This document shows positions 1,974 to 12,670 of a stretch of 64,000 nucleotides of DNA, one piece after another. The DNA is from Acidobacteriota bacterium (GTDB taxonomy: Bacteria > Acidobacteriota > Terriglobia > Terriglobales > SCQP01), in NCBI GenBank assembly GCA_027459505.1, contig DAIDIE010000020.1, positions 1 to 64,000 of the forward strand. The letters are read 5' to 3'. The number at the start of each line of letters is the position of its first letter. Within the stretch, counting starts at the first letter, position 1. The notes below the pieces were generated by a model. The model saw nothing but the letters and a program-made list of their open reading frames with translations. It ran no database searches and had not been told where the DNA came from. A program made the translations under genes and the position numbers.

Positions 1974-2614
1974 TGACCACGCTCAAAGCGCGCGACGTAG
2001 ATCCCCAGCCCAAACTGAGAAGAACACTCAGAGCCCATTCCCTATGGGGCGCGATCTGGATGTCGGCGGCGATCATTTCCGCCGTCGGGTTGGTCCAGGA
2101 TCTGCTCTTTTGGATTAGCGGGTGTTCTACCGACTGCCTCGGTGCACGCGGTGTTGCTGTTCTCGCATCTGGAACGCTGATTGATGCAACCATCGCTTTT
2201 GCTCTCTGGCCGGGACTCTTCAAGCGCTCGCGATGGGCACCGCCTCGAACCGTGGCGTGGTGGGGTGCGGCGGCAGTCGCATTGGCATTGCTTTTCGGGC
2301 GCGGCACAGAGATGACGGTCTCTACCGGTCAGCTGGCCCTTGTGGCGCCGCTGGTCGAAGAACTCATGCGGGCGGTGGTTTCGGATATACTCGAGCCATT
2401 TTTAAGTTCCGGATGGCTCATTGTTCTACCCGCAGCGGTGTTCGCGGTTTTGCACTTTGCCCACATTCCTCAAATTTTTGCGGCTGAGCTCGTGCTCCAG
2501 GGGTGCTATGTGCGGACGAAGGGGAACCTCGGAGCCTCCTGGATCTGCCACATGCTTTATAACGGCGTGCTTGTAATCATGCTGTACCACGCTGGCATGT
2601 TGGTGCCGGGATGA
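1973..2614 (+). CDS. CPBP family intramembrane metalloprotease
   Basis: About 213 residues with five or six hydrophobic segments. It shows the three CPBP/Abi motifs: EE...R in APLVEELMRAVV, F..H in FAVLHFAHI, and a late H...N in WICHMLYNG. In this family these residues bind zinc and cleave within membranes; members act in CAAX processing, bacteriocin self-immunity or unknown roles. GTG at 1970 is an alternative start. The stop overlaps the next ATG (ATGA), so it is probably co-translated with the Sel1 protein. In this toxin-rich setting an immunity-like role is possible but not shown. Confidence 0.75.
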   Translation: MTTLKARDVDPQPKLRRTLRAHSLWGAIWMSAAIISAVGLVQDLLFWISGCSTDCLGARGVAVLASGTLIDATIAFALWPGLFKRSRWAPPRTVAWWGAAAVALALLFGRGTEMTVSTGQLALVAPLVEELMRAVVSDILEPFLSSGWLIVLPAAVFAVLHFAHIPQIFAAELVLQGCYVRTKGNLGASWICHMLYNGVLVIMLYHAGMLVPG

Positions 2615-3387
2615 GGTGCCATCGAGGCCTAACGACCATTGCTGACCTTGAACAGTTGATTGCTGAAGAGGATATGGAAGCGCGTCAACCCAAAGAAGCA
2701 GCCGGGCCAGAGTCGAAATCATGTTCCCCGCGAGAGGCCTTTAGAAGGGCTGTAACGCTCTGGAATGCGGGTACCCCGAGGGGTTTCGATGAAGCCTTTC
2801 CATATTTGCTGCAGGCCGCGAGCGGGGGAATATTGGGAGCACACGAATGGCTCGGAGCGGCTTACGACTATGGCATCGGAACGGCCGTAGATCACCGAAA
2901 GTCATTTGAGCACTATTTGTGGGGCGCCCAGCGCGGCGACGCCAACTGTGAGTACCACGTGGGCATTTTTCTCGCGCAGGGCAAAGGAACACGCAAGGAC
3001 ACGGTACTGGGCGCCAAGTGGTTGAGTAAAGCGGCCAAGCATGGTGACCGGGAAGCGATTGACCTGCTGGGCAGGTGGTATCGGGACGGGCGCGGGGTGA
3101 GGCGTGATCCGCGAAAGGGTTTCAGGCTGCATCTTAAGGCGGCGCAAATGGGCTGCTTGGATGCACAGTTCTCCGTTGGCTACTGTTTAAGCAGAGGCAT
3201 AGGCACGCGGGCCGATCCGGTGGCTGCTTTCAAGTGGTACCTGAAGGCAGCAAAGCGCGGAGATAGCGACGCGGCCCACAACGTTGCCCACTTTTATCGC
3301 TTAGGGCGGGGTGTGCGGAGAAGCGAGGCAAGAGCGGAGTTCTGGATTCGACGAGCTCAAGAGCTGCAAGAGGTGGCGACCAAGTGA
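2611..3387 (+). CDS. Sel1-repeat (tetratricopeptide-like) protein
   Basis: 258 residues. From about residue 50 it carries five tandem Sel1-like repeats of about 36 residues, with the typical A..wl..AA..G...A...LG..Y..G.GV..D spacing (for example GRWYRDGRGVRRDPRKGFRLH). SLR proteins act as protein-binding scaffolds. No clear signal peptide, so probably cytoplasmic. The ATG overlaps the stop of the CPBP gene. Partial copies of this gene recur at 6176-6275 and 6738-6930, so this intact copy is the parent of a rearranged duplication. It converges with a RelE-like gene starting 10 nt beyond its stop. Confidence 0.8.
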   Translation: MRCHRGLTTIADLEQLIAEEDMEARQPKEAAGPESKSCSPREAFRRAVTLWNAGTPRGFDEAFPYLLQAASGGILGAHEWLGAAYDYGIGTAVDHRKSFEHYLWGAQRGDANCEYHVGIFLAQGKGTRKDTVLGAKWLSKAAKHGDREAIDLLGRWYRDGRGVRRDPRKGFRLHLKAAQMGCLDAQFSVGYCLSRGIGTRADPVAAFKWYLKAAKRGDSDAAHNVAHFYRLGRGVRRSEARAEFWIRRAQELQEVATK

Positions 3388-3396
3388 GCGTGGGCC

Positions 3397-3639
3397 TCAG
3401 CGGTAGACTTCGCGGCGGTGACGGACGCGCAGGATGCGGATGGTGTCGGCGGCCAGCTCGAAGCGCACGCGGTAGTCGCCGACGCGGAGGCGATACTCAG
3501 GCGGATCGATCCCTTGCAGCTTGCGGACGTTGCCAGCCCCAGTGGCGGCGAAGTGCTCGACGGCGAGCCGCACGCGCCGGGCGATGGTTTTATCCAACGC
3601 CGCCATCGAGGGGGCCTCGGTCCACTCGATCTCTTTCAT
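3397..3639 (-). CDS. RelE/ParE-family toxin
   Basis: 80 residues from ATG at 3639. The pattern KTIARRVRLAVEHFAATG, then VRKLQG, then YRLRVGDYRVRFEL and a C-terminal RHRREVYR is typical of RelE-type mRNA interferases: two helices, then a beta-sheet with basic residues. A TAA seven bases upstream ends what looks like the antitoxin frame, with an AGGGA site between them, the usual antitoxin-toxin order. The antitoxin itself is only a C-terminal fragment, so this toxin lacks a complete local partner. A nearly identical copy with a frameshift lies at 6941-7184. Confidence 0.75.
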   Translation of the reverse strand: MKEIEWTEAPSMAALDKTIARRVRLAVEHFAATGAGNVRKLQGIDPPEYRLRVGDYRVRFELAADTIRILRVRHRREVYR

Positions 3640-3646
3640 TCCCTGG

Positions 3647-3743
3647 TTAATCCAGTCCGAGACGGCGCATCGCCTCTTGATGCGGGATTCCCTTGCCGCC
3701 ACGTTGGGCGAGCCACTGCCGGGCATCAGCGACGGCCTGGCGG
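3647..3743 (-). pseudogene. Antitoxin C-terminal fragment (RelB-like)
   Basis: The minus-strand frame ends ADARQWLAQRGG, then EAMRRLGLD and stop, just upstream of the RelE-like toxin. This matches the end of small RelB-type antitoxins. The 5' part, with the DNA-binding domain, is missing: homology stops at the edge of the three-hairpin module at 3744. The same truncation is present at 7191-7287. Confidence 0.5.
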
Positions 3744-3876
3744 CTTGCTCGCATCGGGGCCTGCGCCCCGATGCGGGATTGTTGGGGCGCGGCGGACCGG
3801 GCATACAGCTCGCTGTGCTCGCTTATGCCCGGCTAGGGTTGCTGGCATCCCGCGAGGCGGGATGCCCCGGAGGCGG
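3744..3876. repeat. Three-hairpin repeat module, copy A
   Basis: Three consecutive near-perfect inverted repeats: 10-bp arms at 3751-3774 (GCATCGGGGC with a 4-nt loop), 9-bp arms CCGGGCATA/TATGCCCGG spanning 3797-3832, and 10-bp arms GGCATCCCGC/GCGGGATGCC spanning 3844-3866. The block recurs at 6276 and 7288 with only a few differences. Each copy sits where RHS-core sequence joins unrelated sequence. Confidence 0.75.
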
Positions 3877-3880
3877 GGCG

Positions 3881-5023
3881 AGCAGCGCCAGCTACGCCTA
3901 CGACGCGGCGGGACGGCGGGTACGCAAGACGGTCAGTGGGACGACGGTGTACTATCTCTACGATGTGGCGGGAAACCAGATCGCCGAGATCAATGCGGGA
4001 GGCGGGGTGAACCGCCAGGAGATCTACGCGGGAGGGCGTCACCTGGCCACCTACGCCAACGGCGGGTTGAGCTATCACTACAGTGACTGGCTGGGGACCG
4101 AGCGGGCCACGGTGGGGCCGAACGGCACGTCCAGTGTCTCGATTTGTACCAGCCTGCCCTTTGGGGAAATGCTGAACTGCACGTCCGGCGACCCCAGCCC
4201 GATGCATTTCACCGGCAAACAACGCGACGCGGAAACCGGCCTCGACTACTTCGGAGCTCGCTACAACGCAAGTTCGGCTGGGCGGTTCATGAGCCCGGAT
4301 CCGCTGGGCGGCAAAATGCTCAATCCTCAGAGCCTCAACAAGTACGTCTATGTGACTGACAACCCGCTGAACCTGACTGATCCCACGGGCATGTACATCT
4401 GCGCGGACGACCCCCAGGGCTGCAGGTCACAAAATGACCGGGAACTCGCGAAGACGCTTGCGCGGCTGCTCAAATCGAAAAACCCGGATGTGGTTCGGGC
4501 CGCCGAAGCTTTTGGCGGAGCGAATGACGACAACGGCGTGACTGTGGTATTTGGGGACCCCGGGAAGGGAAAGGACGGCAACACCGTTCACGGATTGCAG
4601 GGCGACCCGAAGCACTTGGGAAAACTTAAGGTCAAGGACACTGTAGTATTCCGGTTGGGTATTAAGGGAGCAAGGCTGGATGCCGCAGTGGGCCATGAGG
4701 GAAGTCACGCCGCAGATGGGCAGGCGGTTGTTGCCAGCTTCAACACCGGACACCCCAATCCGGCGCTGAATCTACGCAAATACGAAACCGAGGTCCGGGC
4801 ATACCTCAATACACAAGACATCCTTGACTCCAACGGCAGGACCGGCGCCATTCGATGTCTGACAGGTACATGCCAGCTCGGAGCTGGTGTAACGCCAGCA
4901 GAAGCACGGACTCACATCGACAGCATCCTAGCCGATCCGCAGAATGGGTACGGCGGAAAGGATAAGGGGGTAACGTCGTCCGATCCGGGACCCGTTCTGT
5001 ACTCCGTACTTCCTCATCTATGA
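3881..5023 (+). CDS. RHS-core protein fragment with putative zinc-peptidase C-terminal tip
   Basis: RHS homology begins at 3881 (SYAYDAAGRRVRKTVSG). It continues through YD-repeat sequence to the RHS-associated core, with HFTGKQRDAETGLDYFGARY, GRFMSPDP and the closing YVYVTDNPLNLTDPTGM near 4390. The last 210 residues are a variable tip of the kind that carries toxin activity in RHS proteins. It contains VGHEGSHAADG, an HExxH-type motif suggesting a zinc metallopeptidase. The frame is open upstream to 3521 but crosses the antisense RelE and hairpin sequence, and no RHS start is visible. Complete RHS proteins are much longer, so this is a 5'-truncated or displaced tip. Its stop overlaps the next ATG. 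Confidence 0.65.
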   Translation, partial: SSASYAYDAAGRRVRKTVSGTTVYYLYDVAGNQIAEINAGGGVNRQEIYAGGRHLATYANGGLSYHYSDWLGTERATVGPNGTSSVSICTSLPFGEMLNCTSGDPSPMHFTGKQRDAETGLDYFGARYNASSAGRFMSPDPLGGKMLNPQSLNKYVYVTDNPLNLTDPTGMYICADDPQGCRSQNDRELAKTLARLLKSKNPDVVRAAEAFGGANDDNGVTVVFGDPGKGKDGNTVHGLQGDPKHLGKLKVKDTVVFRLGIKGARLDAAVGHEGSHAADGQAVVASFNTGHPNPALNLRKYETEVRAYLNTQDILDSNGRTGAIRCLTGTCQLGAGVTPAEARTHIDSILADPQNGYGGKDKGVTSSDPGPVLYSVLPHL

Positions 5024-5526
5024 TCAAGCACACAAAGATGGTATCTGTACTGGGCCTTTGTGCCGCGCTTGCGTGCTCGATGGCAGCCCAGTCTGGCAGG
5101 GTGTGGTTGCCAATGATTCACGGGGAGGTGCCCTTGTACCCGCGCTGGGCCTGGCAGGCAAACATCTCTGGAGCCGTGACCCTCAGGCTGGTTATATCAA
5201 ACGGACGAGTGACGAGCGTGAAAGTGGTCTCGTCAGCCAATCCTATCCTGGAGCGTGCTGCAGTCGAAAACGTTCGAACATGGCGCTTTGATGTCCTGAA
5301 GCGACCGGTGATTACAAACACCGAGTTCGAGTACAGCATCAAAGGCAGGCCGGTTTGGCCACTCGGGCCCCCCAGGATTTACCTCCGGATTCCGTACAAG
5401 GTGGTCATTACAGTGCGGCCGCCGAAGCCGACCTGCAGCGACTGTGAGGACGTGCCGTTCACAATATCCCGGGCTCACGCGCTGCCGCCGCGCTCCTCCC
5501 CAGCGACGCCACGAGTGCCTAAATGA
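5020..5526 (+). CDS. Secreted TonB C-terminal domain protein coupled to the RHS tip
   Basis: 168 residues. The N-terminus is a signal peptide (VLGLCAALACSMAAQS). Residues 30-110 match the TonB C-terminal fold: PLYPRWAWQANISGAVTLRLVI, then RVTSVKVVSS, then LERAAVENVRTWRF. Free-standing TonB-C proteins of this kind are common in Acidobacteriota and are periplasmic. The start overlaps the RHS stop (ATGA), so the two are co-translated. A gene directly after a toxin tip is often its immunity gene; a periplasmic TonB-C protein in that place is unusual, and that role is a guess. A short proline-rich tail with a CSDC motif follows. Confidence 0.65.
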   Translation: MIKHTKMVSVLGLCAALACSMAAQSGRVWLPMIHGEVPLYPRWAWQANISGAVTLRLVISNGRVTSVKVVSSANPILERAAVENVRTWRFDVLKRPVITNTEFEYSIKGRPVWPLGPPRIYLRIPYKVVITVRPPKPTCSDCEDVPFTISRAHALPPRSSPATPRVPK

Positions 5527-5696: not shown

Positions 5697-6051
5697 AAGT
5701 GATTCAGCCGCAACACCGTTCGCAAGATGCTCAAACCCGAATCGCCGCGGCCGTTTCAAGCCTCAGCGGAGCTCTTGCCTGGAGGAGTTCAAGCCTCTCC
5801 TGCGGCAGCGCTGGCAGGAGTGCGGCTTTTCCGCCGTGCGCCTGCTCGACGAGATCCGGCCCATGGGGTACGCCGGCTCGATCGCCACCGTGCGCCGCTT
5901 TCTGCAGGGGCTCAAACCCGAGCGCGAGCGCCTGAGCAAACTCACGGTACGCTTTGAAACGCCGCCCGGCAAACAGGCCCAGGCCGACTCGCTGAAGAGA
6001 ATGCGGCACGACCGCTTTTATTCCACTGCTTCGTCGTCCGGTCGAAGCTGA
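5697..6051 (+). pseudogene. istA: IS21-family IstA transposase fragment
   Basis: Pieces of the IstA N-terminal half in two frames: FSRNTVRKMLKPESPRP near 5702, then after a frameshift at about 5770 the run QRWQECGFSAVRLLDEIRP, YAGSIATVRRFL and VRFETPPGKQAQAD. This is the helix-turn-helix and early catalytic region of IS21 transposases, where the next residues normally read W and the first catalytic acid. Here the frame ends in unrelated sequence. No istB follows, so the element is dead. Confidence 0.7.
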
Positions 6052-6137
6052 CGGATGGTGGCCGCGCTTCACTAGTCAGCGGTGTGGGGCCTAAACGGCA
6101 ACCCCGGACTTCGCTACGACTTCGGCCTGAAATCTCG

Positions 6138-6168
6138 AACTCGAAAACAGTTCGGCTCGGCCCTGGCT
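6138..6168. repeat. 31-bp dispersed repeat, copy 1
   Basis: The sequence beginning AACTCGAAAACAGTTCG and ending CGGCCCTGGCT recurs, with two mismatches, at 9779-9809 upstream of mutS. It lies between the IS21 remnant and the Sel1 fragment. Confidence 0.5.
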
Positions 6169-6175
6169 CGCATAA

Positions 6176-6275
6176 AAGCGCGTCAACCCAAATAAGCAGC
6201 CAGGCCAGAGTCGAAATCGTGTTCCCCGCGAGAGGCCTTTAGAAGGGCTGTGACGCTCTGGAATGCGGGTGCCCC
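6176..6275 (+). pseudogene. Sel1 gene 5' fragment (copy B)
   Basis: About 100 bp nearly identical to 2678-2774 of the intact Sel1 gene. A G-to-T change turns its GAA codon into TAA, and the match stops where hairpin module B starts. The deleted middle of the gene (2776-3193 in the parent) is replaced by hairpin plus RHS sequence. Confidence 0.7.
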
Positions 6276-6407
6276 CTTGCTCGCATCGGGGCCTGCGCCC
6301 CGATGCGGGATTGTTGGGGCGCGGCGGACCGGGCATACAGCTCGCTTTGCTCGCTTATGCCCGGCTAGGGTTGCTGGCATCCCGCGGGGCGGGATGCCCC
6401 GGAGCGG
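6276..6407. repeat. Three-hairpin repeat module, copy B
   Basis: Same module as at 3744: inverted repeats at 6283-6306, 6329-6364 and 6376-6398. Here its left flank is Sel1 coding sequence rather than the antitoxin fragment, so the shared left edge (CTTGCTCGCATCGGGG) marks a true boundary. Confidence 0.75.
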
Positions 6408-6411
6408 GGCA

Positions 6412-6759
6412 AGCAGCGCCAGCTACGCCTACGACGCGGCAGGACGGCGCGTGCGCAAGACGGTGAGCGGGACGACGGTGTACTATCTCTACGATGTGGC
6501 GAGAAATCAGATCGCTGAGATCAACGCGGGAGGCGGGGTGAACCGCCAGGGGGTCTACGCGGGAGGGCGTCACCTGGCCACCTACGCCAACGGCGGGTTG
6601 AGCTATCACTACAGTGACTGGCTGGGGACCGAGCGGGCGACGGTGGGGCCCAACGGCACATCCAGTGTCTCGATTTGTACCAGCCTGCCCTTTGGGGAAA
6701 TGCTGAACTGCACGTCCGGCGACCCCAGCCCGATGCAGAGGCATAGGCACGCGGGCTGA
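6412..6759 (+). pseudogene. RHS-core fragment, copy B
   Basis: RHS core from SYAYDAAGRRVRKTV to GEMLNCTSGDPSPM, close to copy A, then an abrupt join at 6737 to the Sel1 3' fragment. The join shares the three bases GCA with both parents. There is no start and no C-terminal tip, so it cannot make a working RHS protein. Confidence 0.7.
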
Positions 6760-6930
6760 CCCGGAGGCTGCGTTCAAGTGGTACCTGAAGGCAGCAAAGC
6801 GCGGAGATCCCGACGCGGTCCACAACCTCGCCCACTTCTATCGCTAAGGGCGGGGCGTGCGGAGAAGCGAGGCAAGAGCAGAGTTCTGGAGTCGACGAGC
6901 TCAAGAGCTGCAAGAGTTGGCGACCAAGTG
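6738..6930 (+). pseudogene. Sel1 gene 3' fragment (copy B/C)
   Basis: Matches 3194-3387 of the intact Sel1 gene, including its last repeat and stop, with scattered changes. One change makes a premature TAA near 6845. It forms the left end of a block of about 940 bp that duplicates 3194-4131. Confidence 0.75.
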
Positions 6931-6940
6931 AGCGTGGGCC

Positions 6941-7184
6941 TCAGCGGTAGACTTCGCGGCGGTGGCGGACGCGCAGGATGCGGATGGTGTCGGCGGCCAG
7001 CTCAAAGCGCACGCGGTAGTCGCCGACGCGGAGACGATGCTCAGGCGGATCGATCCCTTGCAGCTTGCGGACGTTGCCAGCCCCAGTGGCGGCGAAGTGC
7101 TCGACGGCGAGCCGCACGCGCCGGGCGATGGTTTTATCCAACGCCGCCATCGAGGGCGGCCTCGGTCCACTCGATCTCTTTCAT
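6941..7184 (-). pseudogene. RelE-like toxin, frameshifted copy
   Basis: From MAALDKTIARR to the terminal HRREVYR it is almost identical to the gene at 3397-3639 (one visible change, PEHR for PEYR). One extra base in GAGGGCGGCC near 7156 puts the native start (ATG at 7184) out of frame. Initiation at the internal ATG at 7150 would give 69 residues without the first strand, probably inactive. Confidence 0.65.
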
Positions 7185-7190
7185 TCCTGG

Positions 7191-7287
7191 TCAATCCAGT
7201 CCGAGACGGCGCATCGCCTCTTGATGCGGGATTCCCTTGCCGCCACGTTGGGCGAGCCACTGCCGGGCATCAGCGACGGCCTGGCGG
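7191..7287 (-). pseudogene. Antitoxin C-terminal fragment, second copy
   Basis: Same truncated RelB-like end as at 3647-3743, here with TGA instead of TAA as the stop, again cut at the edge of the hairpin module. Confidence 0.45.
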
Positions 7288-7420
7288 CTTGCTCGCATCG
7301 GGGCCTGCGCCCCGATGCGGGATTGTTGGGGGGCGGCGGACCGGGCATACAGCTCGCGGTGCTCGCTTATGCCCGGCTAGGGTTGCTGGCATCCCGCGGG
7401 GCGGGATGCCCCGGAGGCGG
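7288..7420. repeat. Three-hairpin repeat module, copy C
   Basis: Inverted repeats at 7295-7318, 7341-7376 and 7388-7410. The second hairpin keeps its arms, but its loop differs at single bases from copies A and B. Confidence 0.75.
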
Positions 7421-7424
7421 GGCA

Positions 7425-7727
7425 AGCAGTGCCAGCTACGCCTACGGCGCGGCGGGACGGCGGGTGCGCAAGACGGTCAGCGGGACGACGGTGTACTATC
7501 TCTACGATGTGGCGGGAAACCAGATCGCGGAGATCAACGCGGGAGGCGGGGTGAACCGCCAAGAAATCTACGCGGGAGGGCGTCACCTGGCCACCTACGC
7601 CAACGGCGGGTTGAGCTATCACTACAGTGACTGGCTGGGGACCGAGCGGGCGACGGTGGGGCCGAACGGCACGTCGCTGTGCAGAAGTCTGCCGTTTGGG
7701 GACATGCTGCTGTCAACGCGGATTTAA
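7425..7727 (+). pseudogene. RHS-core fragment, copy C, cut by an IS end
   Basis: RHS core like copy A until about 7675, where the sequence turns into a different RHS variant (SLCRSLPFGDML). The frame then runs into the IS21-like end at 7711 and stops at 7727. The variant switch suggests recombination with another RHS gene elsewhere in the genome. Confidence 0.65.
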
Positions 7728-9809: not shown

Positions 9810-9875
9810 GGTGGAGGTTTGACACCCGGCCTTGCGATCTGGAAAGATGGATTCCCGCCGCAGCTCACTATTGAT

Positions 9876-9964
9876 ACCAACGCAATCGAAACCAACGTAA
9901 TCGAAACGATCGCAATCAAAACCACCGCAATCGAAACCAGCGCAATCGAAACCACCACATGGAA
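9876..9964 (+). repeat. 15-bp minisatellite spanning the mutS start
   Basis: Five direct units of the form ACCAACGCAATCGAA (9876-9950), with one to three changes each, then a 14-bp partial unit ACCACCACATGGAA that contains the mutS ATG at 9959. No Shine-Dalgarno sequence is visible in the repeat, so copy number could change spacing or translation of mutS. Confidence 0.75.
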
Positions 9965-12670
9965 ACCACCGCAGTCTCGACGCCGCTGATGCGGCAGTAT
10001 TCGGAGATCAAGAAGGCGCATCCCGGCGCGCTGCTGTTTTTCCGGCTGGGTGATTTTTACGAACTGTTTTTCGAGGACGCGGTCACGGCGGCGCGCGAGC
10101 TGGAAATCACCCTCACCTCCCGCAACAAGGAGAAGGGAATTGCCGTACCGATGTGCGGCGTTCCCTATCACGCGGCGGAAAACTATATTGCCCGGCTGAT
10201 TGGCAAAGGCTACAAGGTGGCCATCTGCGATCAGATGGAAGACCCCAAGCAGGCGAAAAAGCTGGTGCGCCGTGAAGTTACGCGGGTGCTGACGCCGGGA
10301 ACGGCGAACTTCCAGACGGCGGGCGGGGAGAACAATTATTTGGCCGCGGTGCTGCGCCAGCATGCGCGGGTGGGTCTGGCGATTCTGGACCTCTCGACCG
10401 GGGAGTTCCGGGCCACCGAATTTGAAGGCGAACAGGCGCAGCAGCGTCTGCATGACGAGCTGGAGCAGTGGCAGCCTCGGGAAATCCTGTTTCCGCAGAC
10501 CGCGTCGCTGTTCGCCAAAGATGGGGAGACCGCGATTTTGCCGCAGGCCCTATCGCGTTTGGCCACGCGAACGCCGGTGGAAGAGTGGACGTTTGCTCCC
10601 GACTTCGCGCGGCGCATCCTGGAAAACCATTTTGGCGTGCTGTCGCTGGAGGGCTACGGGCTGGAGCAGCGCACGCTGGCGGCCTGTGCCGCCGGCGCCA
10701 TCGTGCATTACGCCAAAGAGACGCAGCGCAACCCGATCGCGCATGTGGACCGCATCGGCTATTACGAACGCCAGCACGGCCTGCTTATCGACGCGGTCAG
10801 CGCCCGCAACCTGGAATTGGTCGAGCCGCTGCTGGCCGGCTCGGGAGCGGTCACGCTGCGCGCGGTTCTGGACGGGGCGGTTACCCCGATGGGCAAGCGC
10901 CTGCTGCGCAGTTGGCTGCTGCGGCCCTCCGCCGATCTGGGGGAGATCAACGCGCGCCTGGAGTCGGTACAAACGTTTGTGGACAACTGGGAGCTGCGCG
11001 ACCGGCTGCGCCAGACGCTGGGCGGCGTTCTGGATCTGGAGCGGCTGCTCAGCCGCGTTTCGCTGGATACCGCCGGGCCACGCGACCTGCTCGCCCTCAA
11101 GCTATCGCTGGATCGTATTCCTGAAATCAAGGCGCTGCTGCATGGTTCGCCGCGGTCGGAACGTCTCGAAACGCTCGGCAGCTCGCTCGACGATCTGGCT
11201 GAGCTGCGCGGCAACATCGAGCGCAGCCTCGCCGATGAGCCTCCGGCCACCACCGCGGACGGCGGATTCATCCGGGCCGGGGTTTCTCCGGAGCTCGACG
11301 AACTGCGCCAGCTCAGCCATAACGCCAAGACCATCCTGGCGCAGATGGAGCAGCGTGAGCGCTCGCGCACCGGGATTGCCTCGCTGAAGATTCGCTTCAA
11401 CAACGTTTTCGGCTATTACATCGAGATCTCCAAGGCCAATCTGGCCTCCGCGCCCACGGATTACGAGCGCAAGCAGACGCTGGTGAACGCGGAACGCTTC
11501 ACCACGCCCGAGTTGAAAGAGCTCGAGGTGAAGATTCTCACCGCCGAAGAGAAAAGCCTGGAAATCGAGCAGCGGCTGTTTCAGGGTTTGCGGGCCACCG
11601 CCGCCTCGCATACCGCCGCGATCCGTCACAACGCGGTGGCGGTGGCGGAAATCGATCTGCTGGCCAACTTCGCTCACCAGGCGGCGGCGCACCATTACTG
11701 CCGTCCACAGTTGCAGGAGAGCGGGGACCTGGAGGTGCGGGCGGGCCGCCATCCGGTGGTGGAGCGGCTGTCGCTGGAGGGTGTGGCGGACCGTTTTGTC
11801 CCCAACGATGTCTATATCGATCCCAGCGGACAGCGTCTGCTGCTGATCACTGGCCCCAACATGGGAGGCAAGAGCACGTATCTGCGGCAGGTGGCGCTGC
11901 TGGCGGTGATGACGCAGATGGGCTCGTTTGTTCCCGCCGAGTACGCGCGTCTGCCCATCTTCGATCGCATCTTCACGCGCATCGGGGCCAGTGATAACCT
12001 GGCGCGCGGCCGCTCCACCTTCATGGTGGAGATGACGGAAACCGCAGCGATTTTAAACAGCGCCAGTCCGCGCAGCCTGATTATTCTCGACGAGATTGGC
12101 CGCGGCACCGCGACTTATGACGGACTTAGCCTGGCCTGGGCAGTGGTGGAGTACCTGCACGATCAGGTGGGGGCGGCGGCGCTGTTTGCCACCCATTACC
12201 ACGAGCTCACCGCGTTGGCCGAGCACCTGCCGGGCGTGCGCAACCTGCACGTCGCGGTGAAGGAGACGCCCGCCGGCATCGTCTTCCTGCGCCGCGTCGA
12301 GCCCGGCGAGGCCAGCCGCAGCTATGGCATTGAGGTGGCCAAGCTGGCGGGCTTGCCGCTGCAGGTGATTGAGCGCGCCCGCTCGGTGCTGCAGCAACAC
12401 GAACTGGCGGCGCAACGAACGACCGAGGTCCTGGAAAAAGTCAACGAGGTGGAGGGAGCGGCAGGGCAGGCGGCACCCACGGCCTCCGGCCGGCCCACGC
12501 CGCGGGAGCGCGTTGACGACGGCGGGCCGGCCATGCAGCTCACCATCTTTACGCCGCTTAGCCAGCAGATCGTCGACCGGCTGAGCGGCATCGATCTCAA
12601 CAAGCTCACACCCCTGGAAGCGATGAATCTGCTGGCGGAGATTCAGCGGCAGATCAAGGAACAAGGGTAG
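9959..12670 (+). CDS. mutS: DNA mismatch repair protein MutS
   Basis: 903 residues, usual length for MutS1. The mismatch-reading FYE motif is in [11 protein letters not shown] near residue 35. The Walker A motif GPNMGGKST is near residue 630, followed by the Walker B region ([16 protein letters not shown]) and the conserved ATHYHELT. MutS binds mismatches and small loops and recruits MutL. The C-terminus has the usual helical tail ([14 protein letters not shown]). The start is set by [12 protein letters not shown], which matches the family N-terminus; the ATG itself lies inside a 15-bp minisatellite with no clear ribosome binding site. Confidence 0.95.

Follow-up and report, generated by a model that had tools for sequence, protein, structure and literature searches.

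A 64,000-nucleotide stretch of DNA from an Acidobacteriota bacterium (the window) carries, in three places, a trio of consecutive hairpins followed directly by a fragment of an RHS gene. The locus raises the question of what this hairpin module is: a part of the RHS genes, a structured sequence spread passively by recombination, or a palindromic unit that was itself moved or copied. An initial annotation of the window had reported three strong, unlike hairpins together at 3744, 6276 and 7288, and all three copies proved real.

A three-hairpin module between truncated genes

The three copies form a repeat of about 130-134 nucleotides, in which B and C match copy A at 97-98% identity and pairwise identity among all three is 96-98%. 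Each copy contains H1 (11-bp stem, 4-nt loop), H2 (9-bp outer stem, 18-nt loop) and H3 (10-bp stem, 3-nt loop). Copy A folds better than dinucleotide shuffles both as single-stranded RNA (z = -3.0, with 3 of 200 shuffles equally good) and as single-stranded DNA (z = -3.75, 2 of 200). We also counted places where three perfect stems of 8 bp or more fall within 160 nt. There are nine such trios in 517,289 bases of the same genome, a sample of 27 loci of which several were picked for holding the module and two (L016 and L080) have 4 kb in common; four first-order Markov controls gave no trio in any of them. Module copies account for eight of the nine trios, and a cluster of a different palindrome family on contig C43 for the remaining one. 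The strict filter omits two copies on contig C29 (C29_4 and C29_5), though both align as full modules.

Table 1. Features around the three module copies, in window coordinates.
Feature	Position	Strand	Remarks
Sel1-repeat gene, intact copy	2611-3387	+	position 2777 is the equivalent of the left junction of module B
ParE-type toxin gene	3397-3651	-	PF05016
31-residue remnant upstream of ParE	3649-3741	-	cut at left edge of module A
Module copy A	3744-3876	+	H1 3750-3775, H2 3797-3832, H3 3844-3866
RHS core fragment A	3877-4393	+	5' truncated at module right edge; RHS-associated core domain TIGR03696
Separate ~170-bp dispersed repeat, one copy	6003-6175	+	its right end marks where the Sel1 fragment ahead of module B begins
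Sel1 copy of 2678-2777 (95%)	6176-6275	+	ends at left edge of module B
Module copy B	6276-6407	+	H1 6282-6307, H2 6329-6364, H3 6376-6398
RHS fragment B	6408-6734	+	right end joined to Sel1 sequence with 3-base overlap (GCA)
Copy of 3191-3743 (Sel1 3' part, ParE, remnant)	6735-7287	+	leads into module C
Module copy C	7288-7420	+	H1 7294-7319, H2 7341-7376, H3 7388-7410
RHS fragment C	7421-7718	+	right part of duplication of A; divergent from about 7675 onward

Copies A and C belong to one segmental duplication of about 975 bp (3191-4165 = 6735-7709), and the window therefore has two independent left flanks rather than three. The earlier remark that the left edge stays the same while the flanks differ thus stands for A and C against B, but not for A and C as separate cases. 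Copy B sits in a chimera of 100 bp of Sel1 (2678-2777), the module and 327 bp of RHS, after which Sel1 resumes at the equivalent of 3191. On the left the junction coincides with the module's own edge, and on the right it has a 3-base overlap; there is no clean empty site for module B, the right junction lying 413 bp further along Sel1, and those 413 bp are missing from the chimera.

To the left of A and C lies what the initial annotation had called an antitoxin fragment. Its position upstream of ParE makes that plausible, but the 31-residue remnant matches no model in Pfam or NCBIfam. To the right, an RHS homologue on contig C24 of the same genome continues N-terminally where the module abuts the window RHS sequence. 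Together with the cut remnant on the left, this places the module between truncated genes, and within the window it supports the proposal that the module marks a recombination border.

The same homologue bears on whether the module could be an integral part of RHS genes, as its position beside RHS in all three window copies would allow. Across the genome, 10 of the 13 module matches lie away from RHS, and homologues of RHS fragment A occur in 11 places, only three of which, all in the window, have the module, leaving eight without it. No RHS match coincides with any of the 10 module matches found outside the window, and the C24 homologue has its own N-terminal sequence instead of the module. 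The possibility foreseen by the initial annotation, that the module is always part of longer RHS genes, is thus refuted, and we regard an RHS origin as barely credible.

Several other features of the window deserve mention. RHS fragment C leaves A and B near 7675 and has an alternative RHS-like end (7675-7727), which by its sequence looks as if it came from another RHS gene. The C-terminal extension of RHS fragment A (4388-5023) matches no Pfam family above cut-off and holds HEGSH, which we take to be a zinc-protease-like motif of the HExxH type; a gene with a TonB_C domain follows at 5020-5526. The ~170-bp repeat before the chimera has sharp ends (GCGGCACGGCCGCTTTTATTCCA ... CTCGGCCCTGGCTCG) and about 40 copies in the genome, at 79-89% identity and on both strands (40 of 200 first-look candidates scored, ten copies aligned). 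It does not fold better than shuffles and has no Rfam match. At 9865-9969, 15-bp tandem repeats (ACGCAATCGAAACCA-like) adjoin the start, at 9959, of a gene that we read as mutS-like.

Copies and flanks across the genome

A DNA search of the whole genome (G000; 4.06 Mb, 45 contigs) returned 13 matches to the module, 10 essentially full and three partial: three on the window contig C37, two on C43, six on C29 (five full copies and about half of another), and single matches on C21 and C1. All three partial copies end with a break inside H2: C21 retains H1 and part of H2, C1 retains H1, and the third stands at the start of the C29 array. When the ten full copies were used to build a covariance model, it recovered 12 of the 13 matches and nothing else, missing the C1 remnant. 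Within the sampled sequence, H1 and H3 were seen only inside the module or its remnants. The same holds genome-wide for H1 (11 sites) and for the joint between H2 and H3 (12 sites, 10 of them listed).

The C29 copies form a tandem array directly downstream of a gene that we read as RND-pump-like. The array repeats every 405 bp (5.2 copies, 93% matches), and each unit joins the module to some 275 bp of other sequence. Contig C43 begins with the base of H1, which fits an assembly break within a repeat. Outside the window, the copies examined lie between or downstream of genes. As in REP and BIME sequences, the module thus presents repeated short palindromes situated mainly between genes, here with 13 matches on five contigs.

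Beyond the module edges (TTGCT...CGGAG), the flanks in the window and on C43, C29, C21 and C1 are unrelated, and the left edge is common to the matches on all five within 1-2 bases. These observations bear on the main rival to a mobile unit, in which segmental duplication and homologous recombination alone account for the spread and the module is a passive structured repeat. Such a history would account for A and C as one duplication of about 975 bp, for the C29 copies as a tandem array that includes flanking DNA, and for the 3-base overlap at the right junction of B, which is typical of end joining or template switching. It sits poorly with five contigs that share no flank beyond the module and with a left edge kept to within 1-2 bases in all matches, and we consider it unlikely, if still to be taken seriously.

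The module was not found by DNA search in 59 other relatives, nor by the covariance model in 13 relatives of the family, in each of which the model scored 150 out of several thousand first-look candidates; in this set of 14 family genomes, ours alone represents its genus. Among 396 other genomes of the order, 14 have the H2-H3 joint when up to 3 mismatches are allowed, always with 2-3 mismatches. A reversed control pattern gave 17 matches by our own count, so the 14 are background. Exact H1 and the exact joint are absent from the genome_contigs collection and exact H1 from viral_contigs, where no RHS-like protein was confirmed either, and plasmids and phages gave no distant DNA match to the module. 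The initial annotation had proposed a search for the module alone, without RHS; this search found it in its own genome (10 of 13 matches), but not in relatives. On these sequence comparisons, the module is best read as lineage-specific. In those parts of the literature on REP, BIME, RAYT, Acidobacteria, RHS and palindromes that were available to us, searches not tailored to the module sequence gave no account of such a hairpin trio.

Anatomy of the block and comparison with known elements

Although the flanks are unrelated, the conserved block always extends from (T)TGCT ahead of H1 to CGGAG behind H3, in the order TTGCT-H1, a variable linker of ~22 nt, H2-CTAGGGTTGCT-H3 and CGGAG; the C1 remnant keeps TGCT only. 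H1 (CGCATCGGGGC-n4-GCCCCGATGCG) is near-invariant, and the H2-H3 joint is identical in all ten full copies. Within H2 the outer stem is conserved and the inner stem variable, pairing well on C43 and C29 and broken in the window copies. On the same strand, H1 and H3 are both preceded by TTGCT and open with a similar arm (NSCATC). H2 has a conserved foot, CTAG, on the opposite strand, and its likeness to H1 and H3, judged by eye, is only loose; the layout is possibly direct-inverted-direct.

In the module alignment, 97.2% of 359 pair cells pair. Whole pairs are swapped at columns 58/90 and 105/126, one pair in H2 and one in H3, and these swaps separate the C29 group from the window and C43 group, which amounts to few independent events. 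The number of pairs changed on both sides is not higher than in shuffles (3 versus 2.8); only the number of such cells is. The paired changes in the alignment support selection on the hairpins, but they amount to few events. Compensatory changes of the kind used to recognize REP and BIME sequences are therefore present in H2 and H3, again as few independent events.

A stable fold, paired changes and, as far as examined, positions between or downstream of genes outside the window would also suit a structured RNA or a regulatory or terminator cluster kept by selection. Rfam gave no match above threshold, the only hit being a microRNA model that scored 19.6 bits where the gathering score is 100. 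Copy A has no promoter-like or terminator-like site, the neighbours differ from locus to locus, and the module occurs in tandem arrays, all of which makes this explanation improbable. An integron attC or similar site-specific recombination site would likewise be hairpin-rich, arrayed and located at borders. The core motifs RYYYAAC and GTTRRRY are absent from all ten copies on either strand, on which ground we reject attC, and the C29 units are near-identical rather than different cassettes; we give a site of this general kind almost no weight.

The REP literature describes GTAG/GTGG (or CGTC) at the foot of REPs, frequent association of GTAG-type REPs with a cognate RAYT gene that they flank, and large clusters that often hold units reiterated with flanking DNA (PMC2817692, PMC3733652, PMC6006769). 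One of these sources also gives the basic BIME module as two direct REPs around one inverted REP and the usual copy number of REPs as more than 100 per genome (PMC2817692). Another reports atypical hairpins with a CnGA foot beside class 3 TnpA genes, in Acidobacteria and Planctomycetes among others (PMC6006769).

The module shares with REPs and REPINs of the GTAG or CGTC type its perfect short stems, conserved foot bases, restriction to a lineage and the presence of Y1 transposases in the genome, but its foot is TTGCT (H1, H3) or, on the other strand, CTAG (H2). Neither GTAG nor GTGG occurs in any of the ten copies on either strand; CGTC occurs in four of ten, in the H3 loop region only and not at a foot. 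Like a BIME, it has several hairpins per unit, lies outside genes, possibly has a direct-inverted-direct order, is amplified in tandem with flanking DNA and is mixed with other palindrome families. It differs in having three different hairpins in a fixed order, none of them seen as a free singleton, no GTAG/GTGG foot, no adjoining cognate transposase and a copy number of 13, well below that usual for REPs. The class 3 TnpA-linked hairpins are similar in their non-GTAG feet and several different hairpins, but the module has no adjoining Y1 gene and its feet do not fit CnGA (PMC6006769).

MITE-like palindromic insertion elements, such as the Rickettsia palindromic elements, offer a further comparison. 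The module resembles them in size (~100-150 bp) and in lying beside broken genes; unlike them, it has no terminal inverted repeats and shows neither a target duplication nor an in-frame insertion into an intact gene. By analogy, the module functionally resembles a BIME-type element. We do not file it as a REP, since no copy has a GTAG/GTGG foot, no transposase is adjacent and its copy number is low, nor do we file it as a BIME.

Transposases and a proposed origin

The genome encodes two Y1_Tnp genes (PF01797, IS200-like), on C42 (L019) and C40 (L018). The C42 gene is RAYT-like, scoring close to the cut-off with 76.7 bits against the NCBI model for REP-associated tyrosine transposases (REP_Tyr_transpos, cut-off 80), appears from its sequence to be frameshifted at its start, and is flanked by CCCACTCAAC-n7-GTTGAGTGGG palindromes. 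That palindrome has 36 sites in the genome and none in the 13 family relatives; it also occurs inside the C29 repeat unit. On its 5' side the C40 gene runs into the contig end; it is followed by two hairpins, CCAGGGA-n5-TCCCTGG and GCGTGGC-n3-GCCACGC, a pair with five sites in the genome (including C1/L017 and L015) and none in the 13 relatives. This two-hairpin element (CCAG..CTGGCTACT..CAGGCGTGGCtccGCCACG) carries a canonical GTAG foot on the other strand. In two relatives of another genus (G007 and G002), Y1 loci L057 and L061 share two hairpins with 12-bp stems, CGGCTGGCGGCA and GCGGCGGGCAGC.

Besides the module, the genome thus has at least two palindrome families, and members of both Y1-linked ones lie between or near module copies on C29, C43 and C1. 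The sequenced flanks of both Y1 genes contain no module hairpin, the 5' flank of the C40 gene lying beyond the contig end. The search for a REP-type transposase that the initial annotation had suggested thus turned up two PF01797 genes, but neither is flanked by module hairpins. Its description of a palindromic unit holds as a repeat unit, but mobility through this genome's own Y1 enzymes gains no support.

We favour, at a probability of about 0.58, a lineage-specific, non-autonomous composite palindromic repeat of ~130 bp, similar to REP and BIME sequences and moved or copied as one block. A single ordered block with common edges and unrelated flanks on five contigs argues for this reading, as do tandem amplification with flanking DNA on C29, the paired changes in H2 and H3 and the position between truncated genes in the window; the block was probably mobile or copied as a unit in the past. 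The most likely route is a single-strand transposase, with the mobilizing enzyme a candidate only. In this scenario a Y1/HUH-type transposase, working in trans or since lost, would have moved or copied the block in the form of single-stranded DNA. Once near-identical copies were in place, homologous recombination or copying errors could have duplicated their neighbourhood, which would yield C from A as well as the Sel1-module-RHS chimera B.

A bolder proposal, which we hold to be a long shot, makes the module a new kind of non-autonomous single-strand element: a fixed trio of dissimilar hairpins with a TTGCT guide, mobilized in trans by a Y1 transposase, that can carry adjacent DNA and thereby shuffle RHS fragments. 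The module and 327 bp of RHS would then have entered the Sel1 gene together, with the module's left edge leading.

If the composite repeat spread by recombination only, it would be one more lineage-specific repeat of local interest. If instead the block moves as a unit, it would widen the known hairpin elements beyond GTAG- and CGTC-tagged REPs, and would add a concrete example of a palindromic repeat sitting where duplicated RHS and toxin-antitoxin fragments join and, with it, a way in which RHS and toxin-antitoxin loci may be rearranged.
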